Assembly (NCBI GenBank): GCA_037042185.1
Contig: JAXQJY010000032.1
Span: forward strand, 2,356,001 to 2,420,000
Reading direction: 5' to 3'
From: Sordariomycetes sp. S80-01Y
Lineage: Eukaryota > Ascomycota > Sordariomycetes
DNA length: 64,000 bases
The number at the start of each line of letters is the position of its first letter. Within the stretch, counting starts at the first letter, position 1. This document shows positions 1,239 to 45,700 of this stretch, piece by piece. Below the pieces are notes generated by a model. It did not search any database. It was not told the DNA's origin and saw nothing but the letters and a program-made list of their open reading frames with translations. The position numbers and the translations under genes were made by a program.

Positions 1239-1652
1239 TGTGTCAGGTCGAGGACATCCATACACACGAAACAGGACATTGTCATTCTTACCCGCAGCGA
1301 TGGATGGAGTAGTAGATAGTCAATAATCCCCCCGCAAAGGGGTGGTTCACGAAGTCTGAGTGTCCAGCGCGTGTACCACTAGTACAGAGCACCACTGTAA
1401 CAAATGTCTTGGTAACATTAAAAAGACATGAAAAAGGGGGGGATGCCTGAGTGTGACAAAAGAATGGTGGGGTCTCGGTGAGAACTACTAGCTCCAGCTC
1501 GTGACCCCACATTGAATGGCCGGCCAGGCTCACTCACCGAGCGCAGCCGCCCCAAAAAAAAAGTTAGTCTGAGCTTCACACTCCAAATCCGGAGGGGCAC
1601 TTTTTCTTCATCCTGGACGGTAGAGACTCGCAACACAAGCGCACATATCGCC
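1239..1652. other. Intergenic, 3' UTR and RPAC1 5' leader
   Basis: No gene is seen. An A-run lies at about 1554-1563. The RPAC1 frame stays open upstream to 1512, but those codons do not resemble the family and the chosen start is 1653. Confidence 0.6.
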
Positions 1653-2861
1653 ATGCCCTCACGGCAGGCAAACGGGGCTTCAGGCCCCAGCGAGCAGGAA
1701 TTGCGTGATAGAAATGTGAGCAAACCCCCCCTTCAATTGTCCTTTGGCGCCTCCGTAACATCTGGAACTGACCCTCCCGCGCAGACCGTCGGCATCGGCA
1801 AAGAAACAGTCTTCGACACAACATCCGTCGACTTCCCGGGCCACTTCCCCGGCGAAGACCACGCCTTCTCCCTCGATCGCTTCCGCGCCGGCTTCAGCGT
1901 CAACTTCCACCAGAACGACGCCTCCCACGCCTCCTTCTCCCTTGTCGGCATCGACGCCTCGCTGGCCAACGCCTTCCGTCGCATCCTCCTCGCCGAGATC
2001 CCGACCCTCGCCATCGAGAACGTCTACATCGAGAACAACACCTCCGTCATCCAGGATGAGGTCCTGGCACACAGGCTGGGTCTCATCCCCTTCAAGGGCG
2101 GCAAGGAGGGGCTGCACAACTTCCTCAAGTGGCACAAGAAGGCCGAGCCGGGCGAGGATCCCTACGCCAATTGCTTCGACTGGAACACGGTCCGCCTGGA
2201 GCTAAACGTCACCTGCACCGTGAACAGGGATGCCGACCCGGGCGAGACGGATCCATTGAAGGCGTACCACAATGCGCACGTCTACGCCAGGGACATTGTC
2301 TTCCAGCCCACTGGCAGACAGCCGGAGTACTTCTCGGGCGAGGACGCCATCATGCCCGTCAACCCGGACATTCTGATCGCCAAGCTGAGGCCGAAGCAGA
2401 CCATCAATCTGGCCATGCACATGCACAAGGGCCTGGGGTCCGACCACGCCAAGTTCTCGCCCGTCGCGACGGCTTCCTACAGGCTTATGCCGACGATTCA
2501 AATCACCAAGCCCATCGTGGGCCCCGACGCCGAAAAGTTCCAGAAGTGCTTCACCGAGGGCGTCATAGGGCTGGAGAAGATCACCAAGAAGGAGGCCGGC
2601 CGGCCAGAGTACGAGGGCCACTCGGCTGGCGAGGTGCAGGCCGTGGTCAGGGACCCGATGAGGGACACCGTCAGCAGGGAGGCGCTGCGGCACGCCGAAT
2701 TCGAGGGCAAGGTCAAGCTGGGCCGACGGAGGGATCACTTCATCTTCTCGATCGAGAGCACGGGCCAGTGGGACAGCGACGAGCTCTTCATGGAGAGCGT
2801 GAAGCACATGAAGGCCAAGTGCAAGAAGCTGGAGCAGCAGGTCGTCGACATGGTCAGGTAG
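1653..2861 (+). CDS. RPC40: DNA-directed RNA polymerases I and III subunit RPAC1 (AC40)
   Basis: Alpha-like subunit shared by RNA polymerases I and III, which pairs with AC19 to nucleate assembly of both enzymes in the nucleus. Proposed CDS is join(1653..1715,1785..2861), 379 residues. The RPB3/alpha motif is clear (NAFRRILLAEIPTLAIE), followed by the family's IENNTSVIQDEVLAHRLG region and a C-terminal part typical of RPAC1. The 69-nt intron (1716-1784, GTGAGC...CAG, branch CTGAC) is a multiple of three with no stop, so unspliced RNA would also read through; removing it gives the expected join to VGIGKETVFD. The ATG at 1653 gives family-like length; the frame upstream to 1512 is open but not family-like. 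The gene is convergent with UBA3, with stops 267 nt apart. Confidence 0.93.
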   Translation: MPSRQANGASGPSEQELRDRNVSKPPLQLSFGASVTSGTDPPAQTVGIGKETVFDTTSVDFPGHFPGEDHAFSLDRFRAGFSVNFHQNDASHASFSLVGIDASLANAFRRILLAEIPTLAIENVYIENNTSVIQDEVLAHRLGLIPFKGGKEGLHNFLKWHKKAEPGEDPYANCFDWNTVRLELNVTCTVNRDADPGETDPLKAYHNAHVYARDIVFQPTGRQPEYFSGEDAIMPVNPDILIAKLRPKQTINLAMHMHKGLGSDHAKFSPVATASYRLMPTIQITKPIVGPDAEKFQKCFTEGVIGLEKITKKEAGRPEYEGHSAGEVQAVVRDPMRDTVSREALRHAEFEGKVKLGRRRDHFIFSIESTGQWDSDELFMESVKHMKAKCKKLEQQVVDMVR

Positions 2862-3128: not shown

Positions 3129-4678
3129 CTAGGCCTTTGCCAGAAACTTGAGAACAAAATTGAACTCGGTCATGAAGGCGGGGTCGGTGACGACGACGTG
3201 CTGACCGTTCTCCAAGCCTAGCTCGCGCAAGGTCTTGGAGAGGTTCGGTCGCGTCATCTCCTCCAAGCTCTGCGGCACCCGCATGTAAAGCGTTTTCCCC
3301 TCTGCGCGGATGTTGGGCTTCTTCAGCTGAGCCTCGGGCCGCACAGCTAGCGACTCAAGAAGCTCTTCCAGCGTAGCCTTGGGATCGACCTCGAGCGGAC
3401 GGGCCTCGTCGCTGCAAACGGGGCAGTCCGGCTTCTTCTCGTGGTTGAATGTGTAGGTGTAGATGCTGTCGTTGCCCGAGTACATCATGTAGTTGTTATC
3501 GAAGCCCAGGCAGGGCACTGAAGAGGTCGCAAGCTTGAACGCTTCGTTGCAGCAAGCAGCCGCGATGATGGCGTTGGTCGACGCAATGGCGGGGATGATG
3601 TTCTTTATCGTGCCTTGCGTGAGGGCGTATGTGACTCCTGGGATGTCGAACTCCTCAGCACGGGCAGCAGCCTTCTGGTACAACCAAGTGACGTGCTCCG
3701 GATCGTCCTTGTCCAGCTTCGGAAACGGCTTTTCCTCGTCCCAGGCAATGACATGCGCCCACTCAATACAGTGTTCGGGCTGTCTCGGAATGCTGGCAAT
3801 GGTACACAGCGGAACGGCAGCTCTTGGTGCGTGCATGTCAAGCTGACATTCTATGCACGATGTAATTGAAGGCAGAATGACTCTCGCCTGCCCCTTGAAC
3901 CCTTCCGTTCCCCCATCTATCAGCGGCTTGATGCTGTCGGCGTCGCCCTCCTCCGCGAGGGTCATGAGCGTGCTGTTGATCCAGCGCCTCGCTTCTATGC
4001 TGTCTAGCCCACAGATGACGAGCTGAAATTGCCGGTAGAAGTCAAGGTCGAAATCTTGTATGGCTTTATTGTGAGGGGTGATGGACACGCCCTTGCAGCG
4101 GCGCTCAACGAAGCGGGCGGCGACCTCGGCCTTGTACTTCCCTACGTCTGACTGGCGGAAGAGGAACTGGCGGTTGAGATTGGAGATGTCTATCGTGTCT
4201 GTCGGGTGTTAGGCGCGGTCGCGGGGGACGTGAACGGTTCGTACCCATGTCGATGACGTGAATGTCCCGAAACCGAGACATGGCGAGGTTCTTGAGAATT
4301 TCACACCCTAGGCCTCCAGCGCCACTATCCTTCCGTCAGGCTCATCCTCATCGTTCCGCAAGAAAAAGAGTTACTGACATGACTCTATTCGGCGCGTTAG
4401 CGGTTGGGCGGTGACGTGCAATCGGGCCTCGGTGGGCTGAAGAGGTGCCTACAGGACTTTGTACTTGTCGAACTGCTCAAGGATCTCGGGGCTCAGGGAC
4501 ATCTCCTCCGTGAAGGGGCCAGGGTTCTGGCGGATGTGGTTGAGGTACTTCCTACAGCGGGAGCGTTAGCGACGGTGTGCACGAAGGGAGCTGTTCACCC
4601 CAGCTTGGGGGGAGCTTAAGCTTGCCATTTGGCGGTCTCGTCGACGGTAGCCGCCACCGTCTGAGCGGCGACACTCAT
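3129..4678 (-). CDS. UBA3: NEDD8-activating enzyme E1 catalytic subunit UBA3
   Basis: Adenylates NEDD8/Rub1 and holds it as a thioester before transfer to Ubc12, working with Ula1/APPBP1 to drive cullin neddylation. Proposed CDS is complement(join(3129..4198,4245..4324,4379..4384,4453..4551,4626..4678)), 435 residues, normal for the family. Visible features are the nucleotide-binding loop GAGGLG (residues 54-59), [20 protein letters not shown], catalytic Cys211 in PLCTIAS, zinc-ligand pairs in SCIEC and CPVC, and a C-terminal ubiquitin-fold domain that recruits the E2. Exon 3 is only 6 nt. Intron 1 is GC-AG; the other three are GT-AG with CTAAC or CTGAC branch sites. The last intron (4199-4244) is only 46 nt. 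The start is divergent from TEL2, 362 nt away. Confidence 0.93.
4379..4384 (-). other. UBA3: 6-nt micro-exon of UBA3
   Basis: Read on the minus strand the exon is AGTCAT. It is bounded by ...GCCGAATAG upstream (branch CTAAC) and GTCAGT downstream (next intron has branch CTGAC and ends GGATAG). It supplies Val-Ile in the loop VLVIGAGGLG. No other splice choice restores both the frame and the conserved loop: reading straight on from the micro-exon meets a stop within the next intron. Skipping it would stay in frame and remove exactly two residues. Confidence 0.8.
4552..4625 (-). other. UBA3: GC-AG intron 1 of UBA3
   Basis: The donor reads ATG|GCAAGC and the acceptor CTGTAG, with branch GCTAAC. 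Joining there gives Lys-Trp-Lys-Tyr-Leu, matching the start of the Uba3 core. Using the nearest GT (GTGAAC) would leave an in-frame TAA in the exon. Confidence 0.8.
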
Positions 4679-5040: not shown

Positions 5041-8000
5041 ATGGACCATCTCCTCACACCCGTCAGCACAACCTACCTTAAGTCCAACAATGAGGATGAG
5101 CCTCTCTTCACCGAGGTGAAGCCAGACAGAAAGGACGAACCGTTGTCTAAGCCGGCCACCGTCTCGTCGGAAGATGAGGCTCTGGAGGTTCTGAAAGCCC
5201 AACCCGACTACGACTTGCTCATCTCGACTCTCAAGTACCTCAACCGTGCGCACTCTCTGCACACCCCGGGTCCCAAAAGCGCCGCCATCGTCCAGACTCT
5301 CGTCACGGAAATCGCGCACAACTACTGGGTGCTTTTCTCGGAGGGTTCTAAAGATGGCGACTCGCGGGATCTTGAACTGTTCGTCGCGTCTTTGCGGAGC
5401 GTCACTGGCATCAACGCCTTGCTATCCCACCTCGGAGCTCTCCTTCGGGAGTCTGGGCTGGTCGATAGAGAGGCTAAAAGACCTGACATCACCATGCACT
5501 TGGCCATCTTCCTCGACATCATAGCTTCAGCCCTAAGCGGAGATGACACGATCTTGACTATTTGGGCGGCTTCGACCGCAGACTTGGCTACCGAATCGCT
5601 CAAGAAAGTCCAGTCGCAGGCTTTGCTATCGGTGCTTACAAGCGGGAGGCTCGTTTCAGTTGCTGGAGAGGCAGCAACCTTGGTTGACAAAGACCAACTA
5701 GGTACAACTACACTTTGGATCACGGATGCGCTTGAAATCAGTAGATGGATAGGACGGAATGTCGTCCGCTGGGTGCGTGTTCAATCGGATCGAGCCTCGT
5801 TGCAATTTTGCTCTACATTGCTGCAGAGGGCAATGTCTTTAGGATATCCAGGTGAGTTCTGTCGACGCTGGAACTGAATATGACACTGACTCCGCTATAG
5901 ACAGCTTGATTAGGTTGCTTACAGACTTATTGCTACTGTCAAAAGACCACCGCCCGGGTCTATTCGTGTCGCTGTGCCTTGGCTCAGCTGCTCAGACAAG
6001 ACGAACTCTGTATATCTTGCTAGACTACCTTGCAAGCAGGCACCTTGACCGTATACCCCCAGATGCCGCATCATCAAATCCGATCGTGGCGGCAGCTTCT
6101 GGCATAATCAAATCTGTTATTGAAGCAGACGAAAGTCGCACGCAAGAGGTCTTAAGGTGGTGTACTTCGGCTTCAGGGGCTGGTCTTGGCCACGGCGTAG
6201 CAATCCGTCGAGCTGTACTGGCAGCCTTAGCACAGGACAAGGACGCAGTGACCACGGTCCTCGAGAAGAGCCTGACTCAATTCGGCGATGAGCTCTACAT
6301 TCGACACGCTGCCCTTATGCAACAACATGGCAAGTTACTTCACGCGCAATTGCAACAAGCACGATCGCTAACAGTACAAAGTGCATGCAGAAGTTCTTTT
6401 GCTCAGCGCCGGCTGCGTACATCGTCTCTCGCCTATCAAGCTGACCATGCTGTTACGATCCCCAACGTACCTGAGCACCGTTTCAAATCGCATTGCGGCG
6501 CCTCAGGTCAAAGCTCGCTTCCTGGGCATGGTTGTTGGCGAGGCTCTATCGGGGTTGGTGGATGGGAAGGACAAGAAGTTGGACTTTAAGATGGAGGAGA
6601 TGGACAGTGAAGAAGCGGAGTTTCTCAAGACCCTCACGCATGTGGCCGATGAATGTGGCCCCGTGGACGCCATACTGAACACTGAACAAGACGACGCTAA
6701 AGCACTACCAACAGTCCCGGCACACAGGCCTAGGGAACTTGCCAAGAAAAAGGCAAAGCCAATCCCGGATCCGATCTCCTCCACAAAGCCCAAAGCCATC
6801 ATCGAAGAAGTAGATGACTCGGACAGCGAGGACGATGAAGAACTCAAACCCTACGCAAAGGGCTCAGATCCAGAGGATTCCGACGATGATGCTGAGCTTG
6901 TGCAGCGGAACAAGCCTAAAGCCCCAGTCTACGTTCGGGATCTGATTACGTATCTCCGCGACACGGACAATTATGACAAGCAAAAGCTAGCACTTCACAC
7001 GGCACCACTGCTGATACGGCGAAAAGCCAACTACGGCACCGAGATCTCTTCTCACGCTGATGAGCTCGCCGGCCTGCTCGTTGGTATGCAAGACAAGTTC
7101 GAGCTGGAGGGCTTCGATGATCTGAAACTGCAGGGCATGATTGCCTTAGTAGTGGCACAGCCGAAGAGCATGGCACCATGGTTCGCGCGAACATTCTTCG
7201 AGGGCGATTTCTCCCTGTCGCAAAGGACCGTCATACTCGTCACCCTCGGTCTATCGGCTAGGGAGCTTGCTGGTTTCCAGAAATCCGAGTACCAAGACCA
7301 AGCCTCCTTCGCCTCCAAGAGGCTGCCGGAAAAGATGGAGAAGCTATATATCGACTGGCAGAAAGAGAATGGTCGGGTCGCGGACTCTAACCTCAAAGCT
7401 CTTCCTTCGACGGCCCTCGACACTATCACCAAGTCCCTGACGTCGACTTTCCTCGAGCCCATCGCTGCTGAAGCCGCCGACACCGCCACGGGACCCGACG
7501 CTCTCAAACTGCAGACCTTCACGTCGAGGTACAAATCAAAAGCCTCCAGAAAGCCACGCGTGCGGGCCATACCGAATACGACAGCCGCCCTCCTGGCGAC
7601 GTCTTTCTTCTCGCCGCTGACGGCCCACTTCCAGGTCGCCCTACGTTCGCCGCGACCTATCGTCCTGAACCCGGCGCTCCTAGGGCTCTACCTCCAGACC
7701 CTCGGCGTCATCGTCCACGCCGCCGGCCCTTCGACGCTGTCCCTGCCCGAGCTCACCTCGGAACTATGGGATCTTCTACTAGGCGTGCGGCAGCACGTTG
7801 TGGGAGAGCTCGCCGCCCTGAAGGGTTGGTTCGTCGCTATGGCATCCCTGCTAGAGGTGAACGAGGGCGACATGCGGCGGCTGTGTCAAACGCAGGGGAG
7901 GGAGGTTGTCGAGACGCGGGAATGGGTCAGCGGCGTGTTTGAGAGAACAAGAGGCGAAGATGGCGGCGAAGAGAACGAGGTCAAGATGTTGGCTGCCGGC

Positions 8001-8072
8001 ACGCTGATCAGACTTGGAGAAGCCATCGAGAAGTATCAGGCGTTATTGATGGGGGATATGATTGGGTTCTAA
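5041..8072 (+). CDS. TEL2: Telomere length regulation protein TEL2
   Basis: Alpha-helical repeat scaffold of the TTT complex (Tel2-Tti1-Tti2), which with Hsp90/R2TP stabilises PIKK kinases such as TOR, ATM/Tel1 and ATR/Mec1. Proposed CDS is join(5041..5851,5901..6329,6382..8072), 976 residues. The conserved TEL2 core is clear at about residues 600-730 (VRDLITYLRDTDNYDKQKLA and the following LIRRKANYGTEI). An acidic Ser/Asp/Glu stretch just before it (DDSDSEDDEE) looks like the CK2 site region known to bind the R2TP subunit. Intron 1 (5852-5900) is GT-AG with branch CTGAC. Intron 2 (6330-6381) is GC-AG and is needed to join MQQHVHAEVLLLSAG. TEL2 is divergent from UBA3 and convergent with the kinase gene, 124 nt apart. 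Confidence 0.92.
6330..6381 (+). other. TEL2: GC-AG intron 2 of TEL2
   Basis: The donor reads CATG|GCAAGT, branch CTAAC at 6368-6372, acceptor ACAAAG. With this join the codon G|TG gives Val and the conserved run HVHAEVLLLSAG. The nearest GT donor (GTTACT) leaves the wrong phase for the acceptors seen. Confidence 0.78.
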
Positions 8073-8196: not shown

Positions 8197-10830
8197 CTAA
8201 AATGCATCCTGGAAAGACTCCAACCTCGTCGTGCTTCCCCGCCGCACGGGCAGCCCAGACAGGTACATGTTAGCATGACTCAGATGGTCGCCCAGACTCA
8301 TCGCCATCCTCCTCAGCTCCTCTTTGACCTCCCTGCTGGAAGCCTGCCCCTGTAAGACCGTCTGTGCCGGGTGAAGCGGCGTTCTCGGCAGCGACGGCCC
8401 GTCCAGCTGCAGCGGTTGATCGAGCTGCTTCTGGAGGTTCTGCTGGGGTATCGAGGGTGGGAAGTAGGCGAGATCCTGGGGATGGTTAGGCTGCGGGGTC
8501 GGGCCGTCCATGTCCTCGGGGTCCATGTCCGCGAACTCGCTGAGGGAGTACGGCCGCGCGGAATCGGGTGGAATGTCCAAGCTTTGCGGAGGCTCCTTGG
8601 ACTGGTCCGCGCTGCCGTCGGCGTCGGCGTGCATGTCGACGACTGTGTTCGAGGAAAACTCGGAGTCATCGGATACGTAGATCGATGGCTCGCGATATGC
8701 AGACGGCATGGCGTATACCGAGGCGTGTTTCTCGAGCTCGAATGGATTTGTGCTCCCGAACTCAGAGCCGCTCACGGAACCTGCTTCCGAGTGGGACGTT
8801 GAGGGGCGGGCGTAATCCTGAACTGCGAAAGGAGGCTCCGGCATACTCATGTCGAGATCTATCAGACTCCCAAGGGAGGCACGCTGGTCCATATTGGGAG
8901 GCTCCGCCGGCGCCAGATCATTGAAGGTGGCAGATGCTGGAATGGGCTCCGTTGGTCTGTGAAGCAGCGATGGCCGGCCAGCGTTCGGGGCTGGATCATC
9001 TGTCATCGGGAATCGGAAAGTTGCTGGGTTGGCTGGGGGTGCATCTGAGGCAGGGAAGCGGAAGACTTCTGGTTGGGCGGAGGCGGGAGCTGGAGCGGTT
9101 GGGAACTTCCAGTCCTGCGTGCGTCTGTCGGGCTTTGGCCCAAGGTCTGCAGGGTCACTCGAGGGGCCGCCGTTGAGATCAGGATTGGCTGAGGCTGGAG
9201 CAGGCGCGGTAGGGAATTTCCAGTCCTGCGTCCGTCTGTCAGGTTTAGGTCCTAGATCTGCAGGATCACTCGAGGGGCCGGCGTCGTCGTAGGAGTCCTG
9301 ATAGTCTCCATAACTGTCGGAGTCCATGCGTGAGTCGCCGGCTCTGATTGTGTTCATGTCGACAAAGTTTGACAGATCGCCGCCATGCAAAGAGGCGTCA
9401 AGGTCAATCAGAGACTCCCTCACGTCTGACGAAGGCGCCGAGTCGTCTCGTAACGGGAGGTCTGACACTGGTGCAGGGAACAACCTTCCATAGTACGTCC
9501 TGGAATTATCCTCATAGCTGGACATTGTGTTTGGGTCAAAGAGCTTCTCCAAGGGCGCCTTGACAGATGGCAGCTGCGGCGGCGGCCTTCGGCGTCCCTT
9601 GCCGTTCTTCTGTTGCGGGCGAGCAGTGTCTTCGTAGCTTTCCTGACTGAAGTCGACATTCGAACCGTATACGTCGTAGACGTCCTGCGCACCGCCGTCG
9701 TTGAAGACTTGCTGGTCGAAAGCTGCCGTCGTGCTGAAATTCCACTCGTCGTTTGGCAGCTCCATATCTGACAGATCCTCTGGCGCTTGAGCACCACCCA
9801 TGCCAAACAACGACTTTCTGGCTCCTCCCTGTGACTCCCAGAGCTTGAAACCACGGACGAGATGAGTCAAGGCAGACGTCGGGTAAGCCTCCTCGGTCTT
9901 GAAGATGTAACCATGACGTTGTATCTGGTCGATAGTCGGCCGTTGCTTCGGGTCTTGCTGGAGGCAGTAGCCAACGAGATCCTTCAGGCCCGAAGAGTAC
10001 TGATCGCCCTCTAGACGGGGGGCGCGCTGCTTCAGCATGTTTCCTAGCTTCATGATATCCATCCCTGCTTGCGTGTTCGGCGGCAAGCCAGAGGCGATCT
10101 CGTAAACCATGGCACCGAAAGCCCAGATGTCAACCTCGGTACCGTACGATGCGGTCGGGTCGAAGAGCTCGGGAGCCATCCAGTGAGGTGTGCCGATGAC
10201 GGTGGTTCGCTTGTCAAATTTGGTCTCGATGACACCCGCAACACCAAAGTCGCAGAGCTGGACATCGCCCGTTTCTGTGACAAGAACATTGGCGCACTTG
10301 AGATCTCGATGAATGATACCCTGGCCGTGGACCCAGTAGAGGGCTTCTGCCACCTCTCTCAAGATCGGGATGATCCATTTCTCCTGCAGGCCGCCCGGTG
10401 ATGTAGGGCGCATAAGCGTCGCCACACTTCCTCCGGCGCAATACTCGGTAATCATCCACATGGACTGTGCGACCGGCAGCGCCTCAATGACGGTATTGAC
10501 ATTGCGCGCGCCCGTCTGGCTAAGCCGTTGCAGGGCGTTAATCTCCTTCAGCAAGTCGCTGTAGGTATCAGCCGATCTCGGGTCCATAGTGTCGCTCTGG
10601 TCAATGTCGATGATCTTGACAGCAACCAATTTCTTCGTTTTGACAGCGGTTGCTTTGTAGACGCGACCAAAACTGCCCTTGCCGATGAGCTCTGACAGTT
10701 GATAGGGAGGGACCTCTTTGCCGGATTTGTTGCAGTCCTCGACGACTCTCTTCTGCATCTTTGAGGCATCGTCGACGGCCTTTTGCTTGGTGGCCGACAT
10801 CTCGGGCCATCTCACTTGTAGTGAAGCCAT
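8197..10830 (-). CDS. STE20/GCK-family serine/threonine protein kinase
   Basis: Single-exon gene, 877 residues. The kinase domain lies at about residues 40-300: P-loop GKGSFGRVY, the VAIK-type lysine in LVAVKIID, HRDLKCAN, DFGVAG, and GTPHWMAPE, which is typical of STE20/germinal-centre kinases. The catalytic residues are all present. The tail of about 550 residues is Pro/Ser/Asp-rich and looks disordered, with a duplicated 31-residue unit (9077-9279) and two weaker related copies. Filamentous fungi have a few such kinases acting in septation, polarity and the NDR network; I cannot say which this is. The start at MASLQVRWPE was chosen because the upstream in-frame codons (to 10962) look like leader. 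A CACGTG lies at 11023-11028. The gene is convergent with TEL2. Confidence 0.88.
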   Translation of the reverse strand: MASLQVRWPEMSATKQKAVDDASKMQKRVVEDCNKSGKEVPPYQLSELIGKGSFGRVYKATAVKTKKLVAVKIIDIDQSDTMDPRSADTYSDLLKEINALQRLSQTGARNVNTVIEALPVAQSMWMITEYCAGGSVATLMRPTSPGGLQEKWIIPILREVAEALYWVHGQGIIHRDLKCANVLVTETGDVQLCDFGVAGVIETKFDKRTTVIGTPHWMAPELFDPTASYGTEVDIWAFGAMVYEIASGLPPNTQAGMDIMKLGNMLKQRAPRLEGDQYSSGLKDLVGYCLQQDPKQRPTIDQIQRHGYIFKTEEAYPTSALTHLVRGFKLWESQGGARKSLFGMGGAQAPEDLSDMELPNDEWNFSTTAAFDQQVFNDGGAQDVYDVYGSNVDFSQESYEDTARPQQKNGKGRRRPPPQLPSVKAPLEKLFDPNTMSSYEDNSRTYYGRLFPAPVSDLPLRDDSAPSSDVRESLIDLDASLHGGDLSNFVDMNTIRAGDSRMDSDSYGDYQDSYDDAGPSSDPADLGPKPDRRTQDWKFPTAPAPASANPDLNGGPSSDPADLGPKPDRRTQDWKFPTAPAPASAQPEVFRFPASDAPPANPATFRFPMTDDPAPNAGRPSLLHRPTEPIPASATFNDLAPAEPPNMDQRASLGSLIDLDMSMPEPPFAVQDYARPSTSHSEAGSVSGSEFGSTNPFELEKHASVYAMPSAYREPSIYVSDDSEFSSNTVVDMHADADGSADQSKEPPQSLDIPPDSARPYSLSEFADMDPEDMDGPTPQPNHPQDLAYFPPSIPQQNLQKQLDQPLQLDGPSLPRTPLHPAQTVLQGQASSREVKEELRRMAMSLGDHLSHANMYLSGLPVRRGSTTRLESFQDAF
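9077..9279 (-). repeat. Tandem duplication inside the kinase tail
   Basis: Two copies of a 93-nt unit with a 111-nt period (left copy about 9077-9168, right copy about 9186-9279) encode an identical 31-residue peptide containing DWKFPTAPAPASA. By hand count they differ at 14 codons, all silently. The six residues between copies are NPDLNG. Two weaker copies with the F-[KR]-FP core follow (VFRFP, TFRFP). Confidence 0.88.
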
Positions 10831-12623
10831 GATTTCGGTCGTGTATAACTGAGCGAGGATGAGGCTGGCGATGAGAGGTGCAAGTGTGCGGCTCTGGCAG
10901 GTGCGCGGGCCTTGCGCTCTCACATGTTGAGAGTCAATACGTCTTTGCGTCTTCCACAGCACGTCTGGTCACAATTTGACGTCTGTCACAGAGTGTGTTG
11001 TCGCCCTTTTCAGATGTTGAAGCACGTGAAGTCAAGATAGAGGTCGATGCCTTAAGGGGTTGTGAATCTTGAGCGAGGTTTTGCCATCGACCAATCAAGA
11101 ACAGCCAGCGGAAGCCGGCCCCGCCTGAGGTTCTACTACTTACCTGCACCTTATCTGTACCTGCTTCGTCGTACAAAAGCGTCGCTCCACTGAAACTGGG
11201 AGTGGCAGCGGTTGTTGGAGTGGTGACCCGGCAGGCTGATGTTCATTTTTACCTACTCAGGTACACAACGCATATTCCTTTGCTTCGACAACTTAGTGGG
11301 CAAGCAAAACGCTGGTCGGGCCAACCAAAGTGCGGGTCCGAGCCTGTGAAGTACAACTGGCGAGACACATGTTCCCCAAACTGCGGCTCGCCACCATAAC
11401 GGCCTTGGCCCCTCACAGCCATCCTGCGCTTTGGAAGCACCACCAAGGATCCCAATCACTGAGCCATGGCAGTCCACATGTTGGCAAACATGACGGCAGT
11501 GCGCAATGCTTCGACGAGAGCAGGTTCTTGCAGCGCAAGTGTGAACCTCAGCATGCAATACGGCACGCACGTCCAAGGACCGAGTTGCGAGGCCATGCTG
11601 TCGACAAAAAGCAAAGATACTGTATCATCCTTTGGGATCAGTCGTCAGGGTTCCCCGGGCGGGCGCTCGACGTGGCGGCATCAGCGCCATACTTAAGCAG
11701 CCGCGTAAACAAGGGACGTCCGGGTGGGGGACCTGTCCTTCCTGGAGTCACAACCACTTGGCACCGCCGCGGCTTCATCCTGCGCGCTGTTCGGCCTCAG
11801 CGAGGAGCTTGAGCAGCACGAGCAGGCCGAGCAGGCGCTGCAGGATTCCACGTCCGAGGATGCTTCGGGAAAGCTCGTCTCAGACCGAGATACGTGCGCC
11901 AGCACTAGTCACGACGTGCAGCAGCGTCTGTCAGCTTCGAAATCCCCCATCGGAGTTCGTGCTTGACGGATCGGTCGACTGGGCGGGATACGCCACTTAT
12001 CACCTTCTCCGTAGGTCACATCGTCAAACAGGCCGGGATGGCCCCAGCCTGCAGAGGCATCGCCTGCACGGGTTTGATTCGGATGTAAGAGCCTCGCAAC
12101 CTCGGTACTGCACACTTACGACGTATAGCAATTACCAGCGGCCTGGGATCCTGCCTTGCCTGTGCGTACGCCGTACTGCACCAAGGCTGGCATGGCAGTA
12201 AAAGGGTGATCGCCGAACAGGACCCACGGCGAACAGTTCATGAAATGAATCACCACCTCTGCAACGACGAGACGGCGACAGGGGAAATGGGCTCTGCGGG
12301 ATCGCATCCCACCAGTCTCGCTAATCAGGGGCTGGAGACCCCCGGCAGTCCCCTGATCTAGCATGACTAGTGCCCCTGCTAGCGCCCACCAGTAACGAGT
12401 TGCACAGCGGGCTAACGCGTGGGTGTGTTCGATCCATGGCCTTCGATGCCGAATCCCGGCTTCCAGTTCCTGTCGCTGTCTCTCCGTAGGGTCTCCTAAC
12501 TCCTTCTTCTTCTTCCTTTTTCCCCATATTCCAGCCTGGTGCGTTTTATCATATACATATCAAACCCCCTGGCTCCTCGACTGGTCGAACCCAGGATGAT
12601 CAAAACGTGAATCCGTTTACGTT
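10831..12623. other. 1.8-kb intergenic region (kinase leader and receptor promoter)
   Basis: It separates two divergent genes. Open frames (for example 11330-11812 and 11632-12201, plus strand) show no domain, no credible splice chain and poor codon use. The pyrimidine-rich stretch just before 12624 looks like the receptor's 5' leader. Confidence 0.55.
11023..11028. promoter_or_regulatory. CACGTG motif upstream of the kinase gene
   Basis: Perfect E-box/Cbf1-type palindrome 193 nt upstream of the proposed kinase start. Function is inferred from the motif only. Confidence 0.25.
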
Positions 12624-14069
12624 ATGGACGTGTCCATACTCGCTCTGGTAGAGCGATCGAACAACTTCTTGGAGGAGAATCCCGAGAACGATTCTCTGTC
12701 GCCTCTGCCGAGCAACATCCGCCATGGCTTGATTGTCATATCCATACTCGCCTGCGCGTCCTTTATTCTAACGAGCTCTCTGTTCGTGTATCTCAACTAC
12801 AAGCTCTTCACATGGCGACGCAATCTCCGATCCCGAGCCAAAAGGGTTGCCCGCAACATCCCCGAACCACCTGTCATCGTGGATCTCAACTTCAAACGGG
12901 AACATGAAGACAATGAGCACGCGCAGGGGCGGTCCTCGAACGATGCCCATGAGAGGAACCTGCGCCAGATCCACGCTGTCAGAAACGAGGTGCCCAATCA
13001 GTTCTTGGTCCTGATTTACAACCTCTTCTTGGCCGACATGCACCAGTCAGCAGCTTTTTTACTGAGTGCGTCGTGGTTGGGGCACAATGGCATATTCATC
13101 CACAAGGCCACCTGCTTCATCCAAGGCTACTTTGACTCCAATGGCGATCTGGCCTCGAGTCTGTTCATCACCTATATCGCCGTTCACACTTATCTCTCCG
13201 TCATCAAAGGCTACCAGCCAAGGCAGAGAGTCCTATACATCACTGTTTGCCTGATCTGGGTCTTCGTGTACTCCTTATCGACCATTCCCGTGATTGCCAC
13301 GATGAATGGAAGATCGGTTGGAGGCTACTTCGTCCGCGCTGGCGCCTGGTGCTGGATCAGCAGGGCCTACGAAGAACTCCGGCTCTTTACCCATTACCTC
13401 TTCATCTTTATTTCCCTTGTGGCTACGACCAGCATATACTTGGCTATATATTGGAAACTGCGTCAGCAGGCAAAGATGAGCGAATCGAAGATTGATCGAC
13501 ACCCGGCTTTCCTCATCTACGCTGTCTTCTACGTTCTCTGCACATTACCCCTTGCACTGGGCCGCGTCTGCACCATGGCCAAACTGCACGTACCCATTGG
13601 CTATTACTGCTTCGCTGGATCCTTGATTGCGGCAAATGGTATCGTGGACTGCATAATCTTTAGCGCGACGAGGCACAGCATCGTGTTTGGTGGAGCTGAG
13701 GCAGTCACCTCGAAGAGCACTGGCCTCGACACCTTTTCGTTCCTGCGGACACCAGCTCGCAACTTTGGTCATGAGGTTATGATTCAGGGAGGAGACCATG
13801 CACCTGACAACCAGGCGGCTGGCATCGGTGGTTGGTGGCCAGGCTTTGGCAAGCGCAACTCCAAGGGGTTCAAGGAGTCGCAGGTTCGGACGCGGAGCGT
13901 GAGTCAAGAGTCTCTGCGCGGTGATGATATGGCCATCCACATGGACGTGGTCACTTCGATGACGGTTGAGGAGAGGAGGAGGACTGCTCAATTCCAAGGT
14001 CTATCAAGCGAGGGAACGTCATTGAAAAGCGAAGACCTAGATTCCGTTACCAGAAGCAACCGCGATTAG
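12624..14069 (+). CDS. Seven-transmembrane G-protein-coupled receptor-like protein (Git3/cAMP-receptor-like)
   Basis: Single-exon gene, 481 residues. Seven hydrophobic segments are visible: about residues 36-62, 127-149, 172-192, 199-222, 250-277, 293-315 and 325-350. A long basic loop (about residues 63-126) follows TM1, a Trp/Cys-containing extracellular loop (GAWCWISRAYEE) precedes TM5, and the C-terminal tail of about 125 residues is Ser/Thr-rich and could be phosphorylated. This layout fits fungal receptors related to Git3 or cAMP receptors, which signal through a G-alpha to adenylate cyclase at the plasma membrane. The ligand cannot be inferred. Its stop lies only 18 nt from the stop of the convergent DUF7053-like gene, so the two 3' UTRs almost certainly overlap. 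Confidence 0.8.
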   Translation: MDVSILALVERSNNFLEENPENDSLSPLPSNIRHGLIVISILACASFILTSSLFVYLNYKLFTWRRNLRSRAKRVARNIPEPPVIVDLNFKREHEDNEHAQGRSSNDAHERNLRQIHAVRNEVPNQFLVLIYNLFLADMHQSAAFLLSASWLGHNGIFIHKATCFIQGYFDSNGDLASSLFITYIAVHTYLSVIKGYQPRQRVLYITVCLIWVFVYSLSTIPVIATMNGRSVGGYFVRAGAWCWISRAYEELRLFTHYLFIFISLVATTSIYLAIYWKLRQQAKMSESKIDRHPAFLIYAVFYVLCTLPLALGRVCTMAKLHVPIGYYCFAGSLIAANGIVDCIIFSATRHSIVFGGAEAVTSKSTGLDTFSFLRTPARNFGHEVMIQGGDHAPDNQAAGIGGWWPGFGKRNSKGFKESQVRTRSVSQESLRGDDMAIHMDVVTSMTVEERRRTAQFQGLSSEGTSLKSEDLDSVTRSNRD

Positions 14070-14087
14070 CTTGAAATACGAACAAAA

Positions 14088-14645
14088 TTAACTGCTCTCT
14101 TGCGTGCTGGACCCCTTCTCGTGATCCTCCTTTAGCTTGCACATCATCTTCTCGTGGATGCCCTTCCACCCGGCCTCACAGGTTCCTCGCACTGTCCCCA
14201 TCAGTAGCCTCGAGCATTTGATAACCACGTCTTCCAGCATCTCCCACTCCCCCTCACGTCCTTCAATCTCCCTTACCGCCCAAACGGTTTCCATCATGAC
14301 GCCCAGAGGACTTCTTATCCTCACAAATACGCCCTGAGCCGTGTTGATGAACTCGTATGTGCTTTCCACGTCCTTGTCCCAGAGGCCGGCGGGAAGGGCA
14401 TGCACGCGGTCCGTAACCGTGTAGCAGGCTAGCGAGCCATCACTGGGTGACAGCGGAGTGGCGTTGGTGCGGTCGGAGGGTACAGAGGGCGTGGGTGAGG
14501 GGAGAGGAATTGAGCTGTACGTGATCATGTGAGGATCGCATTCAATGAAGAAGTGGTGGCCTTGGAGGAGAGTCTTGAGATTCGAGGGGGGAATGTGAGG
14601 GGGGAGAGGGGTGATGTGTTGAAGGTGTTGACTAGTGTTAAGCAT
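14088..14645 (-). CDS. DUF7053-like fungal protein of unknown function
   Basis: Single-exon gene, 185 residues. The core YTVTDRVHALPAGLWDKDVE, followed by STYEFINTAQGVFVRIRSPL, resembles the fungal DUF7053 family as I recall it, with a Pro-rich N-terminal third and a predicted beta-rich middle. There is no signal peptide or membrane segment. The family has no established function, although the fold looks like a small lipid- or polyketide-binding (START/SRPBCC-type) barrel; that is inference. It is tail-to-tail with the receptor gene. The ATG at 14645 is the first in the frame. Confidence 0.72.
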   Translation of the reverse strand: MLNTSQHLQHITPLPPHIPPSNLKTLLQGHHFFIECDPHMITYSSIPLPSPTPSVPSDRTNATPLSPSDGSLACYTVTDRVHALPAGLWDKDVESTYEFINTAQGVFVRIRSPLGVMMETVWAVREIEGREGEWEMLEDVVIKCSRLLMGTVRGTCEAGWKGIHEKMMCKLKEDHEKGSSTQESS

Positions 14646-15226
14646 GGCTGCTTTGGTTAGCAGTGACGTCTTAACGAACTGTTTGGGTACTCACAAGTCA
14701 TTTTGGATGGGTTGTCGTTTACATGGAGTGGTTGTTCGCGGGTTGGACGTTTATCTAAGTGGGATTGAGGTCGTAAAGTACAGCGTGCTTTGTTGAGGTT
14801 GCATTGACCCTAGCGTTTAGTACAGGCAACATCGATTGATTATCATGTTCAGGTACTCAAAACACTAGGAATGAGCCACGTATTTATATATCACCCCGTC
14901 CATAAAAGTTTCAATCTAATTATACCGCATTTTAGGTAAAAGCCGTCTGCCTCGTCGAGTCTTTAAGTGCCTCCGGGTAGATCATGTGATTTCGCGATAG
15001 TACCATGACGCGCTTGAGTCGTGTCGATCTTTGCCCCTCGGTTCACGCAACATTTGTCGGGCCATCAAACCCCAGGGTTCAGCACAATATTGAGCGCCCC
15101 TGGATCTCCGGCACGCATGGTCCCACGCCAATGACCAGCAGTCTCTTAAGAACGTCGAAAACAACTCGAGTAGAATGACAATTCCACGTGCAGATCGTTG
15201 ATCACATCTGCTAGTCCTCATCCGCA
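14646..15226. other. Divergent intergenic region, DUF7053-like gene / PSO2
   Basis: No gene is seen. The middle (about 14860-14950) is AT-rich compared with its surroundings. A CACGTG lies at 15185-15190, close to PSO2. Confidence 0.55.
15185..15190. promoter_or_regulatory. CACGTG motif upstream of PSO2
   Basis: Perfect CACGTG 37 nt before the PSO2 start codon. It is close enough to lie in the leader rather than the promoter, so a regulatory role is uncertain. Confidence 0.25.
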
Positions 15227-17848
15227 ATGGCTCCTGCTGCCAAAACCCGTCGAACCGCGACGCCCAAGAAACAACCTAAAATCACAGCCGCAAGCTTTGC
15301 GAACGGCACGCCCGCGAAGCAGCCGCGACCGAACGCCAGTATTCTCAGCTTCTTCCAGAAAACCGACAAGCCCGAGGACTCGATCTTTGTTGGACCCGCC
15401 GCGGCGGAGACGGTGGTGCACGATGACGAGGACATGTACGATGCGGACGCGCCGCAAGAACGCTATAATGAGGTCGTCTGGCCGGTGAAGAGGAGGAAAG
15501 TCAGTATAAGCGAGACGACCAGCGTGGAAGAGAAGGCTACAGAGGAGCAACCCCTAAAAGGGAAGCCTGTGACGAAGGGTAAAGTCGAAGGTTTGGTTAA
15601 GCACGGCAGAAGAGTTGTCAAAGGCCCATTCGTCATGTCGGATAGCGAGGATGATGACGATGAGGGGGAAGAAGACAAGGATCTCAAGGCAGAGGAGAGC
15701 CCGCAGCTGCCCACAGAAGTGAAGGAAACGGTCGAAACAAGAACGTCACCGCCGATCACCACAGAAGAACAGGAATCCTCGATATTCGACATGCCACCAC
15801 ATAAGCCCAGGACACCGCCCTCACTCTTACCCGAAGACTCATCCGTGGCACGAGAGTTCGCCGATATGGAACAAGATGAGTTTGCCGAGTTCGAAGACGA
15901 CAATATGGACGATTTCGAAGGTGAAGAAGCACGGGTTATGGCTTACATGCGGGAACAAGCCCGGATAGAGGCCGAAGCTGCTGCGTTGGCAGAAGGGGCC
16001 GAGGACGCGAGTACCTTCCCAGTGGAAGATCTATTTCACGATGCGGATGATGGGACAGTAGACCAGACTTGTCCTATGTGCCAGGGTAGTATTGCTAGCC
16101 TGTCTTCGGACGAGGCAACGCGGCATGTAAACCAGTGCATGGATGGTACCGCGCCACCACTGCCGGAGCCGAAACTAAAAAATGTCGACGAAGTCAAACC
16201 TCAGCCAGGAGAGTGTTCGCCAGCACCCGAAGTCGACCCGGCCGACCTTGGCAGGCGCTTCAATAAATCCGCCGTACCAAGGCCTGCTCAGCTTAATCCG
16301 TTGGAAGGGGGTGCTCCGGTGGCGGGCGCAAAGACAGCGTTTTCGAAGCTGATGTCGAACAATGCGGAGGATACAGCTTGGGCAACAGCTGCCGCCACAG
16401 AGAAGGCTTCAAGGGGCAAGCCCGCGTATGAGCGGACATGTCCTTTCTACAAGATCATGCCCGGCTTCGCTATCAGTGTCGATGCGTTCCGATATGGAGC
16501 TGTTGAGGGATGCAAAGCTTACTTCCTCAGTCACTTTCACAGCGATCATTATATCGGATTGACAGCGAGGTGGACGCATGGCCCTATTTATTGCAGTAAG
16601 GTCACCGGGAGCTTGGTCCGAAGGCAATTGGGGACTGCAGACAAATGGGTCGTTGATCTCGAATTTGACAAACCCTATGACATCCCAGGAACGGACGGGG
16701 CGACTGTCACCATGATTCCGGCCAACCATTGCCCTGGGAGTTCCCTTTTCCTCTTCGAAAAGACCATGGGTAGCGGGCAAAATGCCCATGTCAAGCGCAT
16801 TTTACACTGTGGCGACTTCAGAGCTTGCCCAGCTCACATCGAGCACCCCTTGCTGAAACCTAACTTGGTGGACTCAGTCTCAGGGAGGGTGAAGCAGCAG
16901 AAGATCGACATCTGTTATCTTGATACTACGTATCTCAACCCGCGATACTCCTTCCCGCCACAAAATGATGTAATACAAGCATGCGCCGACTTGATGGCGA
17001 ACATGTCCCCCGATCCCAACTGCAAAGATGATGTCTGGGAAAGGTCGGCAAAAGCTCTAGGCACGCCTGCCGTGAGCAAGTATTTCAACAAGGTCAATAC
17101 CAAAGATGAGTCTGTTGCTGAAGACGCTGTAAAAAAGCCACGGCAGCGGCTTCTTGTCATTTGCGGCACTTACTCTATTGGAAAGGAGCGGATATGCCTT
17201 GCTATTGCCAAGGCGTTGAACTCAAAAATATTTGCGTCACCAGGCAAGATCAAGATTTGCAAACAGCTCGGCATGCCAGAGCTCACTGAGCGCCTTACCT
17301 CCAACCCGCTGGATGCGCAGGTCCACATGCAGATGCTCATGGAGATTCGTGCGGAAACACTGCAAGAGTACCTGAATGGGTACAAACCTCACTTTAGCCG
17401 CATCGTTGGGTTTAGACCTAGTGGATGGAATTTCAGACCAACAAGCACCAAAACTGTCGGTGCGAATACCCCTCCAAGCACTATCCCTTCCGAACAGATT
17501 CTTCACGGCAAGGGCTGGCGGACACGCTTCGGATACAAAGACTTTGTTGCGCAGAGGGGCAGCACAGGCGAGGCTATGTGCTTTGGCGTCCCCTATTCTG
17601 AGCACAGCAGCTTCCGTGAACTCGCCATGTTCATCATGAGCCTCAGAATTGAGAAGGTTATCCCTACTGTTAATGTAGGAAGTGATCAGTCAAGAACCAG
17701 GATGAAGGCTTGGAATGATAGATGGATGTCAGAACGGAGGCGGTGTGGACTGGTGAAGCCGTTGGTTGAAGGACGCGACGAGGACAAAGAGCAAGATGCC
17801 TTATGGGAGGGGAAGGCCGATGGCAAGGGTGGGTTTGCCTGGTGGTAG
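15227..17848 (+). CDS. PSO2: DNA cross-link repair nuclease PSO2/SNM1
   Basis: Nuclear 5' exonuclease that processes interstrand cross-links. Single exon, 873 residues. In order: a disordered, acidic N-terminal part with basic Lys/Arg clusters that could be nuclear localisation signals; a UBZ4-type zinc finger (about residues 281-305, CPMCQG then HVNQC); a metallo-beta-lactamase domain with the metal-binding motif HFHSDHY near residue 437 and later NHCPGS and CGDFR; and a C-terminal DRMBL domain ending near VNVGSDQSRTRMKAWNDRW. These are the hallmarks of SNM1A/Pso2. The length is typical of filamentous fungi. It is convergent with LSM2, 202 nt apart. Confidence 0.95.
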   Translation: MAPAAKTRRTATPKKQPKITAASFANGTPAKQPRPNASILSFFQKTDKPEDSIFVGPAAAETVVHDDEDMYDADAPQERYNEVVWPVKRRKVSISETTSVEEKATEEQPLKGKPVTKGKVEGLVKHGRRVVKGPFVMSDSEDDDDEGEEDKDLKAEESPQLPTEVKETVETRTSPPITTEEQESSIFDMPPHKPRTPPSLLPEDSSVAREFADMEQDEFAEFEDDNMDDFEGEEARVMAYMREQARIEAEAAALAEGAEDASTFPVEDLFHDADDGTVDQTCPMCQGSIASLSSDEATRHVNQCMDGTAPPLPEPKLKNVDEVKPQPGECSPAPEVDPADLGRRFNKSAVPRPAQLNPLEGGAPVAGAKTAFSKLMSNNAEDTAWATAAATEKASRGKPAYERTCPFYKIMPGFAISVDAFRYGAVEGCKAYFLSHFHSDHYIGLTARWTHGPIYCSKVTGSLVRRQLGTADKWVVDLEFDKPYDIPGTDGATVTMIPANHCPGSSLFLFEKTMGSGQNAHVKRILHCGDFRACPAHIEHPLLKPNLVDSVSGRVKQQKIDICYLDTTYLNPRYSFPPQNDVIQACADLMANMSPDPNCKDDVWERSAKALGTPAVSKYFNKVNTKDESVAEDAVKKPRQRLLVICGTYSIGKERICLAIAKALNSKIFASPGKIKICKQLGMPELTERLTSNPLDAQVHMQMLMEIRAETLQEYLNGYKPHFSRIVGFRPSGWNFRPTSTKTVGANTPPSTIPSEQILHGKGWRTRFGYKDFVAQRGSTGEAMCFGVPYSEHSSFRELAMFIMSLRIEKVIPTVNVGSDQSRTRMKAWNDRWMSERRRCGLVKPLVEGRDEDKEQDALWEGKADGKGGFAWW

Positions 17849-18050
17849 CATAGTTGGATGCCGTAATCTCATTCCAAGAGCGATCTTAAACACCGACTAA
17901 AGACGTATGTTCCAACGTCGGGAATTGGCCCGTCTTTACCCTGGGCCCATGCTCGCATTAGCTGACTTAATGCACCACATGTTTCCCTTATTTATTCGTC
18001 AAGCGCAGACCGCTGACAATCCTAAGAGTCCGAGTTCCACCTGAATCGTT

Positions 18051-18427
18051 TCATTTCGCCTTCTCTCGCTGCGTAGCCGCCTCTCTCCTCGTAGCATCCT
18101 CCAACAACTGCGTATCCACCGACCCCGAGGGCAGGTGGACGTACCGTACCACCGAACCACGGATGAAGACGTTCTTGACGGAGCTGAGATGCGGGTACTT
18201 CAGCTCCTCGACTACTTGAATCTCGTCGAGCTTGATGTTGAGGTACTGATCCACGCTCTTGAGGATGCCGCGGAGTTGGATGTCGTTCTTGAGCTCGACG
18301 GTGACCTCCTGGTCGATGAGCGTCTTGAAGAAGCTGTAAGCAGCGTTAGCATCCTGCTTTCTTTGAGATGCGACGGTACAGGTGGAAAGCGGCGGAGCGT
18401 GCGGGGCGCGTACCTGAAGAAAAGCAT
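18051..18427 (-). CDS. LSM2: U6 snRNA-associated Sm-like protein LSm2
   Basis: Ring subunit of both LSm1-7 (cytoplasmic mRNA decay) and LSm2-8 (U6 snRNA). Proposed CDS is complement(join(18051..18333,18414..18427)), 98 residues, matching the family's usual length. Sm motif 1 runs through DQEVTVELKNDIQLRGILKS and Sm motif 2 is NVFIRGSVVRYVHLP. Exon 1 is only 14 nt and codes for MLFF plus two bases. The 80-nt intron (18334-18413) has donor GTACGC and branch GCTAAC. The downstream frame stays open through the intron, which could mislead a start call at 18527. Confidence 0.95.
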
Positions 18428-18912
18428 TGTCGTTGATGAGTATGAAAATGCGGTTGTTGTGAGATCGATGGTCGAACGCCCCGCCGAGAGACAGCCCTGT
18501 TTGTCGCGGATTGAGACTCCTTCTCAAAATATTTGAGTCAGTCTCACGTACTCAAGGTAAATGGCGGAGTTTTGCGATGTTGCTGCGACGTGACGGAGAT
18601 GGTAGGTTGTCGTCGTTGAGCCGTGAGCTCTCGATTTGACGTTGGCGACTGTCACGTGATCCACTTCGGTGCTAAGTAGAACAGGAACTGGTAAAGAAAA
18701 AAGGAAATATCCGAAGACTTTAAAGGTTATTGTTCATTATAGATCAAGATGCATTTGCAGACTCATTAGATCTCCTGATTGAATTGTTTTGACCACTAAC
18801 TTCGCTCAAGCCCAGACTTACAGGGGATTGACTATGTTAGACCATAACGCCATCTATACAACAGCTTGCAGCACCGCCTAACCGAAGACTTGCACTCCAG
18901 ACTTCTGCCTGA
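18428..18912. other. Intergenic region, LSM2 promoter and UTP12 3' UTR
   Basis: No gene is seen. The right part (about 18690-18850) is AT-rich and probably 3' flank of UTP12. TCACGTGA lies at 18652-18659. Confidence 0.55.
18652..18659. promoter_or_regulatory. TCACGTGA motif upstream of LSM2
   Basis: Perfect 8-bp palindrome, the preferred Cbf1/bHLH site, 225 nt upstream of the LSM2 start. Function is inferred from the motif only. Confidence 0.3.
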
Positions 18913-42770: not shown

Positions 42771-45700
42771 TTACAAAACAATCGCCAGCTCCGGTCTGTC
42801 GGGCTTGTCCTCGTCCAGATTCGGATAATAGGGCACCATGGCATCCGCGCCCTGAACGTAGGCGTCATTGTAAAGCCGCCAGTACGGCGTCCTGACCTTC
42901 CTGGCGGGGTGGAAGAGGCCAGCCCATACGTAGTTCATAACCACACCCGGTCCGACGGCCATGCGGATGGCTTCGATCGCCTCGACGATACGGTCGATTA
43001 CGTGAGGGCTCGTCTCGAAGAGGTTGGGGTAGAGCAGGTTCAAGAGATGGATCATGGCATCCTCGCACCCGAGACCGACGACGCCGAGGGCAATGTGCTT
43101 GACAACCGAGGCGGCTGTTTGACGGTGGACTTGATCACGATCAATGAGGGCGTCTTCAAGCAGGGGTGTGACGGCGTAGACGTAGTCCTTGGCCATCTCC
43201 CCAATATACTCGAAGAGGAAAGAGAGCGACTTGAGGACACCGTTCTGAACGTTCAGCTCAGGAACACGGTACTCGTTCATCAGCGCTGGCAGCACGGTGA
43301 ATGGCGCGCAGGTTTCCGCGACGATGCCGATGGCAACGGCCGTGTTGACACGCGACTGACGCTCTTGCACACGTAGGTTGTTCAGCAGAGTCGCCAGCAC
43401 GTCCTGAGGACCAATGGCCTTGGCGATGAAACCGAAAGTGTTGTTGGCCGCCCGACGAATGCCCTTCTTGTGAGCCTTGAGCATGTCTAGAAGTTCGAAA
43501 CAGATGCGCATCCACTCGCGGGCGTTGACACTCTCCGGTCCTCGATCTGCGATGCGGCCGACGAGGTCGATGGTGTTCTCCTGGACCTTCTCATGTCGGT
43601 TTCGCAGAATAGGAGTGAGGCGAGGGAGCAGGTCCCTGATGGGAGGTTGCATCTGAGAGATGCCAACCACCGTAACGATAGAACGCAGCGCCCCCAGGAT
43701 GGATCCAAGCACTTCAGGGTACTCTTCTCCGAGGTACTCGTAAAGGACGATGCCGAGCTTGCCCATTAATGCATCCTCGCCGCATTGCTTCATGACCATG
43801 GCGATGCGCGAGATCAGGTCGGCTGCTTGTTGTCGAACCGTCGCCGACTTGTTGTTCAGCCGCCAGAGAATCGTACTGACGATCTGAGGCAGATACGGCT
43901 TACAGCGAGTGCCGAGAGCGTTCACGACAGAGCCGAAGCCGTTGAGCATGACAATGTCCTCGACGCTCTGTTCCTGGAACGCATGCAGAATGCCGTCGAC
44001 GAGGCGTTCCTCCAAACGTTCGCCGATGTCTGCGGCACCCAAACTTGCGACGATCTTCTCCACTGTCTCGACTGTCATCTTGCGGTAGGGTTCGCTTTCG
44101 TCCTTCAGGTTGTTGACAATTCGTTCAACGATCTCACTGACACCAACCTTCTGGCCAATATCCACGGTCGTCTCCACCACTTGCCGGTAGTTGCGCTTGT
44201 CCAAAGCCATGCGCCTCACCCAGAAGCTCTTGAAGAACTCGTCGAGCACATGGTCCTTGAGATAGCCGGCGGTGACGCCATCGGTGCCAGCACACTGCGA
44301 AACGACCTTGAGGACAACCTTCTTCATCTCCTCGTCGGGGGAGGAAAACTCGCGTAGCAGAATCTCCATGATCTGACTTGTATAGTAGTTGGCATACTCT
44401 TCGTCCATGAGGGGGATGATGAAGCCAACAGCCTTGAGGAAACCCGCCAGCCCCTTTCCTCGCTGCTTGCGAGCTCCTGTCCACAGTGGGTTGAGGATGT
44501 CGTCGAAGCTCTCAATACCGTAGGGGTTGGACGCCTCAGCCAGTGCGGCGATGGACAGACTGGTCACGGTTCGGACCTTCGTCTGCTCGTCGTTCAGGTT
44601 CGGCCCGATGCATTCCACCAGCCCCTTCAGATGGGGAAGGACGGCGCAGCCCATGAGGATGGGAATCTGCTGAACAATCTTGACACCGGTGTGTCTAGCT
44701 TGCCATGACTTCTTGCTTCGGCACACTGCTCGCAGGAAAGGCAGAAGCGCTGGAATGCCCAAAGCTGAGGCTACCACGGCGAAGGCTCTTGCTGTGGTGT
44801 TACGAACATACTCATCGACGTGGTCGATGTCCGGTCGCATGGTGCTAATCATCGTAGCAAGGCCCGCGGCTTTACTGAGGTTGGAAATGATTTCGCGACC
44901 TTCCACACGCGCATAGTAGTCCTGGTCAATGAGCAGGGGCTCAATGACGACCAAGATCTTGTGCACATATGGTCTGACAAGGTCGTCAAGCTTGTAAAGA
45001 ATGCGGTCGATGACCTTGACCAGCAAGTGGCGCTCTTGGTCTTCCAATGTCTTCTCCATGAGTAGAGGTAGAATCTGGTCAAAGAGAGGACCGGCTCCGA
45101 ATTGGCGCGCGTTGTCAGTGATCTGTCGAAGGGCAGTCTTGCGCATTGGTGGCGTGCCGTTCTTGATCTTCAGCAACAGCCTCATAATCTTCCTCTCCTT
45201 CATGTCCTCCACCGTCATCGAATTCTCGTCCGAGTTATCGGTAAGTTTTCCGAAGTAAGCCATATCCTCGGGCTTGAAAAACTGCAGATCACCAACGCCG
45301 GGAATCTCCGCTGGCATAGGCTTGCCGCCTAGTCGCACCTGATCGGGGTCCTGCATCATGAACCCAGATTGCGGTGCGGGAGTAGCCATGACCTTGTGCG
45401 CCGGTGCCGAAATAGGGGCATAACCTGGTGGAGGCTCGAGGATCTTGTATCCATCCTCCTCTCCAGGAAGAAGCTCGTTAAGCTCCTCGTCACTGATGGG
45501 CATGTTGCGACCGCCTAGATCAGACCCAAAAGCCATATGCGCGGGAGCTTGGGATTGAGGTGCTGGCGTCGCGAGCCCTTGGTTTCCCATAGGCGTAGCC
45601 GAAGGTGCTTGGTCCCAGCGAGAGCGCTTCTTCGGCTCGGCTCCTCCCAGCGACGGTGCTTGATCCCACCTCGAGCGCTTCGCCTTCGCCCCGTCGTCCT

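Follow-up and report, generated by a model that had tools for sequence, protein, structure and literature searches.

The window considered here, a stretch of 64,000 nucleotides from Sordariomycetes sp. S80-01Y (contig JAXQJY010000032.1), carries on its minus strand a five-exon gene (4678-3129) whose joined frame is open and encodes 435 amino acids. Judged by its domains and its best PDB matches, the predicted product is UBA3, the catalytic subunit of NEDD8-activating enzyme. UBA3 belongs to the core enzymes of the NEDD8 pathway. The ThiF domain (PF00899) scored 186.2 bits against a cut-off of 28.1, and the C-terminal E2-binding domain (PF08825) scored 104.3 bits against a cut-off of 33.2. The best PDB matches were UBA3 chains, with 482.6 bits for 1yov_B over residues 11-427, and other E1 subunits scored lower (174.6 bits for the best chain of SUMO-activating subunit 2 and 156.6 bits for the best UBA1 chain). 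Alignment with the sequence of 1yov_B gave 56% identity, and a 13-residue stretch around KVLVIGAGGLG was letter-for-letter the same in both proteins. The GAGGLG motif, corresponding to the GxGxxG of ThiF, occupies residues 54-59. In the alignment to solved UBA3, C211 of the PxCTIAS stretch is conserved, and the cysteine of this stretch (PLCTIAS) is presumably the active-site (catalytic) cysteine. The solved UBA3 chains (PDB 1yov, 2nvu, 3gzn, 1r4m), which we take to be human, represent the same enzyme and share the KVLVIGAGGLG stretch with the fungal gene; they are an animal protein, however, and unlike the fungal locus the structure records carry no gene layout. Scans of viral contigs (two) and of bacterial and archaeal genome contigs (one) returned no eukaryotic UBA3, and the only locus found was in the bacterium Fluviispira; it covered the query in part, at 30% identity, and was left out of the comparison.

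The exons and introns of UBA3 follow one another on the minus strand. Exon 1 (4626-4678) begins with the start ATG at 4678 and is followed by intron 1 (4552-4625), a GC-AG intron of 74 nt (GCAAGC...TGTAG), whose removal is needed for Trp-18, a residue that the alignment shows to be conserved in solved UBA3. When this GC-donor intron is left in place, the in-frame reading runs into a TAA. Exon 2 (4453-4551) ends in AAA GTC CT, which encodes Lys and Val and supplies two bases of a Leu codon. Intron 2 (4385-4452; 68 nt; GTAGGC...GCTAAC...AATAG) is in phase 2, with 12 nt from the branch A to the last G. It is followed by the micro-exon, exon 3 (4379-4384), whose 6 nt, AGTCAT, consist of the last Leu base, a Val codon and the first two bases of an Ile codon. 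Behind intron 3 (4325-4378; 54 nt; GTCAGT...CCTGAC...GATAG), which is also in phase 2, exon 4 (4245-4324) opens with the last Ile base and continues with GGC GCT GGA. Intron 4 (4199-4244; 46 nt; GTACGA...CCTAAC...GACAG) precedes exon 5 (3129-4198), which runs through the stop and holds the PLCTIAS stretch and the E2-binding domain. The lengths of the two introns flanking the micro-exon are in line with those of introns 1 and 4. Among the six intron pairs of the gene, introns 2 (4452-4385) and 4 (4244-4199) are the most alike, with a score of 13 that 14 of 500 shuffles reach, without correction for the six pairs, and their likeness may be chance. Intron 3 was also considered as a copy of intron 2, and this gained no support, the local alignment score of 5 being reached by 482 of 500 shuffles.

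AATAG stands directly before the AGTCAT at 4384-4379 and GTCAGT directly after it, and the joining of CT, A GTC AT and T GGC GCT GGA yields K V L V I G A G G, that is, KVL-VI-GAGG. It is a 6-nt coding segment with GT-AG introns containing CTRAC motifs on both sides, the pattern of a micro-exon, a term used here for internal exons no longer than about 30 nt. The first-pass annotation had proposed a six-base exon AGTCAT between introns of 68 and 54 nt, and the lengths and the sequence are exact; its statement that the exon places Val-Ile directly before GAGGLG is likewise borne out by the five-exon join and the identity to 1yov_B. The further statement that the exon builds the ATP-binding loop holds in part, in that the exon encodes the final residues of the strand preceding the loop but not the glycine loop itself. 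The splice sites, which had been described as good throughout, also present a divided picture: the branch-like motifs (GCTAAC in intron 2, CCTGAC in intron 3) and the acceptors (AATAG, GATAG) look ordinary, but T occupies position -1 in both donors. Upstream, the donor CCT/GTAGGC agrees with the consensus at five of nine positions; the downstream donor, CAT/GTCAGT, agrees at seven of nine and has C at +3, which is unusual at a donor. For comparison, the donors of introns 1 and 4 agree at six and five of the nine positions, respectively. After the micro-exon, two overlapping donors, GTCAGT and GTAACT, lie four bases apart (4378-4369, minus strand). Use of the second, at 4374 (GTAACT, five of nine consensus positions), was rejected because the reading frame would change and run into a stop; an alternative acceptor lying 2 nt downstream was rejected for the same reason.

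The splice paths of this region were enumerated for GT-AG, GC-AG and AT-AC introns of at least 35 nt, with donors from 4500 to 4321, acceptors from about 4460 to 4290 and a middle exon of 1-60 nt. Six of the 199 one-intron paths were open and in frame, and none of the 199 gave VIGAGGLG. The two-intron paths numbered 1,939, with 115 open and in frame and ten giving VIGAGGLG; in all ten, the middle exon was AGTCAT or ended in AGTCAT, with its donor at 4378. The fuller pattern of KVL, two hydrophobic residues and GAGGLG was produced by a single two-intron path (1/1,939) and by no one-intron path (0/199). Even among 18,090 single junctions formed without regard to splice rules and removing at least 20 nt, none gave KVL with two hydrophobic residues and GAGGLG. 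A different splice path supplying Val-Ile after KVL, the outcome that had been named beforehand as speaking against the exon, was therefore absent among the paths enumerated.

The contribution of chance was estimated from 20,000 dinucleotide shuffles of the 128-nt stretch, in which the six and three end bases forming the outer splice sites were fixed, micro-exons of 3-30 nt in steps of three were accepted and both introns had to be at least 40 nt long. KVLVIGAGG appeared in three shuffles, KVL followed by any two V/I in six, and KVL followed by any two hydrophobic residues in 180; when a CTRAY motif near both acceptors was also required, all three counts were 0 of 20,000. By these counts, the AGTCAT exon is more than chance. 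An open, frame-keeping micro-exon of any sequence, on the other hand, occurred in 8,507 of the 20,000 shuffles (96 with the branch motif), and the strength of the case thus lies in the restored protein and not in the AG and GT. A strict intron-motif scan of the window found 28 candidates, compared with 22.1 in 40 shuffles (sd 5.7, maximum 33); it took in UBA3 intron 2, while introns 1, 3 and 4 lay outside the pattern by their donor or branch. A codon-usage scan for introns in the window, which is noisy, gave 13 groups, and none of the 13 printed representatives was a UBA3 intron. Splice motifs alone are not discriminating in this window, and therefore the case rests on the match to UBA3.

Loss of the exon and retention of its introns differ in their consequences. 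Exon skipping through the direct 4453-4324 junction keeps the frame and leaves UBA3 two residues shorter, as had been claimed, and this open, in-frame path is among those enumerated; skipping is frame-neutral because the exon length is divisible by three and its two flanking introns share phase 2. Retention of intron 2 leads to a stop directly after KVL, and retention of intron 3 alone leads to a stop 11 residues after KVL. Without the exon, the ThiF score falls from 186.2 to 176.9 bits (-9.3), with the start of the match moving from residue 40 to 47, and the match to 1yov_B scores 473.9 bits, compared with 482.6 bits when the exon is present. In one alignment of the skipped form to 1yov_B, a two-residue gap is opened and Y-K-V-L stands opposite the V-L-V-I of solved UBA3, so that Tyr and Lys take positions held by Val and Leu. 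A Lys at a Leu position in the strand that leads up to the nucleotide loop suggests that the protein is damaged. The first-pass annotation had supposed that skipping could silently produce a weaker enzyme; this is possible but unsupported, since with Tyr and Lys in the Val and Leu positions a poorly folded or dead product would be as likely as a weaker one.

Taken together, AGTCAT is very probably a coding micro-exon of UBA3 that is normally included, a reading that overlaps with one of regulated use discussed below, and constitutive inclusion appears most likely. Two short phase-2 introns, 6 nt apart within the Leu-Val-Ile codons of the first Rossmann strand, would each, being 68 and 54 nt long, be recognized across themselves by intron definition. 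Pairing of splice sites across the intron is described for filamentous ascomycetes in excerpts of PMC5639578. As a donor, a branch-like motif and an acceptor are present in each of the short introns, the tiny exon would not need to be recognized as an exon at all. Six nucleotides are too short for U1 and the acceptor-binding factors to be bound at once, and the two introns are thus probably removed stepwise; inclusion would restore KVLVIGAGGLG.

Three other explanations have to be weighed against normal inclusion. It is improbable that the 128 nt form one intron, with KVLGAGGLG in the mature protein and AGTCAT as an intronic chance occurrence. The direct 4453-4324 junction is canonical as well as open and in frame, being one of the six such one-intron paths, and a gene finder would for these reasons accept a single-intron model. 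Such a model, however, omits the Val-Ile that solved UBA3 shares, lowers the ThiF and UBA3 scores by about 9 bits each, leaves a 3-in-20,000 rescue of the protein to chance and has to accommodate a GCTAAC branch-like motif in mid-intron whose A is followed 12 nt further on by an AG. A stwintron, in which one intron interrupts a splice site of the other, removal takes two steps and no exon remains between them, is extremely improbable. A pair of neighbouring short introns in a filamentous ascomycete would suit it, and stwintrons are known from such fungi in the excerpted text of PMC5639578, but this arrangement leaves one junction, and a single junction with a sound protein was found in none of the 18,090 cases, for which reason assignment to the stwintron class was rejected.

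The remaining explanation, which we consider unlikely, is a regulated micro-exon, with inclusion and skipping both used and with the shorter UBA3 lowering or changing NEDD8 activation under some condition. It would draw on the frame-neutrality of skipping, which retention does not share, on the upstream donor with only five of nine consensus positions, and on the glucose-dependent 20-nt microexon of Trichoderma Xlr2, as given in excerpts of PMC11121469. The Tyr and Lys at Val and Leu positions in the skipped form suggest loss of function instead of tuning. In a related proposal, which of the two competing introns is removed first, or how efficiently, would decide between full UBA3 and UBA3 lacking Val-Ile and would in this way set NEDD8 activation and cullin-ligase activity; we regard this as rather improbable.

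Exons this small have been described but are uncommon and easily missed. Several fungal cases may be compared with the micro-exon of UBA3, here as far as excerpts of the respective papers describe them. In Fusarium CYP621A, a 1-nt exon is present in 20 orthologues and is accompanied by SRA reads from two species; it lies inside the conserved motif PKG, and reasoning from the protein led to it within an intron of excessive length (139 nt in F. graminearum), while nearly all the CYP621A gene models in that report were wrong at this exon (PMC12940212). An 8-nt exon in a Phanerochaete P450 is cited in the same report (PMC12940212). The CYP621A case resembles that of UBA3 as a filamentous-fungus micro-exon within a conserved protein motif, but the CYP621A exon is one base long and its skipping breaks the frame, whereas the UBA3 exon has six bases, is frame-neutral and is described here for one species from genomic sequence alone (PMC12940212). 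The 20-nt microexon of Trichoderma Xlr2 is conserved in the genus, and its glucose dependence was seen in RNA-seq (PMC11121469). Like the UBA3 exon, it is a small fungal exon coding for part of a conserved domain, and it was missing from the original Xlr2 model; unlike the UBA3 exon, it measures 20 nt and belongs to the DNA-binding domain of a transcription factor (PMC11121469). Exons of 3 nt have been described in Dactylellina lipS, together with stwintrons in Pezizomycotina (PMC5639578). Very small exons in an intron-rich gene and the intron definition of filamentous ascomycetes are common to lipS and UBA3, but lipS is a different gene, and the stwintron form, in contrast to UBA3, leaves no exon (PMC5639578). 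No fungal UBA3 micro-exon is named in the titles and abstract openings covered, a scope outside which most subscription papers lie; the one paper retrieved there for UBA3 together with micro-exons deals with splicing software. The UBA3 exon adds a further case to the known fungal micro-exons and is set apart from them in that a wrong gene model, too, keeps the frame and would pass unnoticed.

It had been claimed that automated gene finders would usually miss such an exon; this is plausible and fits two published cases in the parts of them cited above (PMC12940212, PMC11121469). With the two introns merged, the gene model of UBA3 keeps an open and unshifted reading frame of nearly full length, yet it is two residues short beside the ATP site. 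Because this merged-intron model would pass as correct, the locus offers a clean test for micro-exon-aware annotation. It likewise tests how intron definition copes with an exon too short for both of its splice sites to be bound at once. The interest of the case is moderate to low and lies mainly in annotation and splicing mechanics.

Other genes were also observed in the window. Adjoining UBA3, an open frame on the opposite strand (1512-2861, plus strand) contains RNA polymerase Rpb3/Rpb11-type domains (PF01193, PF01000). Upstream of UBA3, a telomere length regulation protein (Telomere_reg-2) is encoded at 6381-8072 on the plus strand, and it may be guessed that this gene and UBA3 diverge from one promoter region. 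SF3B1 (PF08920), presumably the splicing factor of branch-point recognition, is encoded in the same window at 42771-46400 on the minus strand, with no link to the micro-exon implied. For the intervals 8197-21651 and 26484-55695, taken together, the Pfam matches include a protein kinase, a rhodopsin-family/Git3-like receptor, a DNA-repair metallo-beta-lactamase (DRMBL), WDR3/Utp12, Rax2, an OGG1-like glycosylase, an RRM protein and a FAN1-like nuclease. A Sordariomycete origin is indicated by the UTP12 product (18913-21651), whose score was 1,515 bits with chain 5oql_I, compared with 812 bits for 5wyj_BB; we take these chains to be from Chaetomium thermophilum and baker's yeast, respectively.
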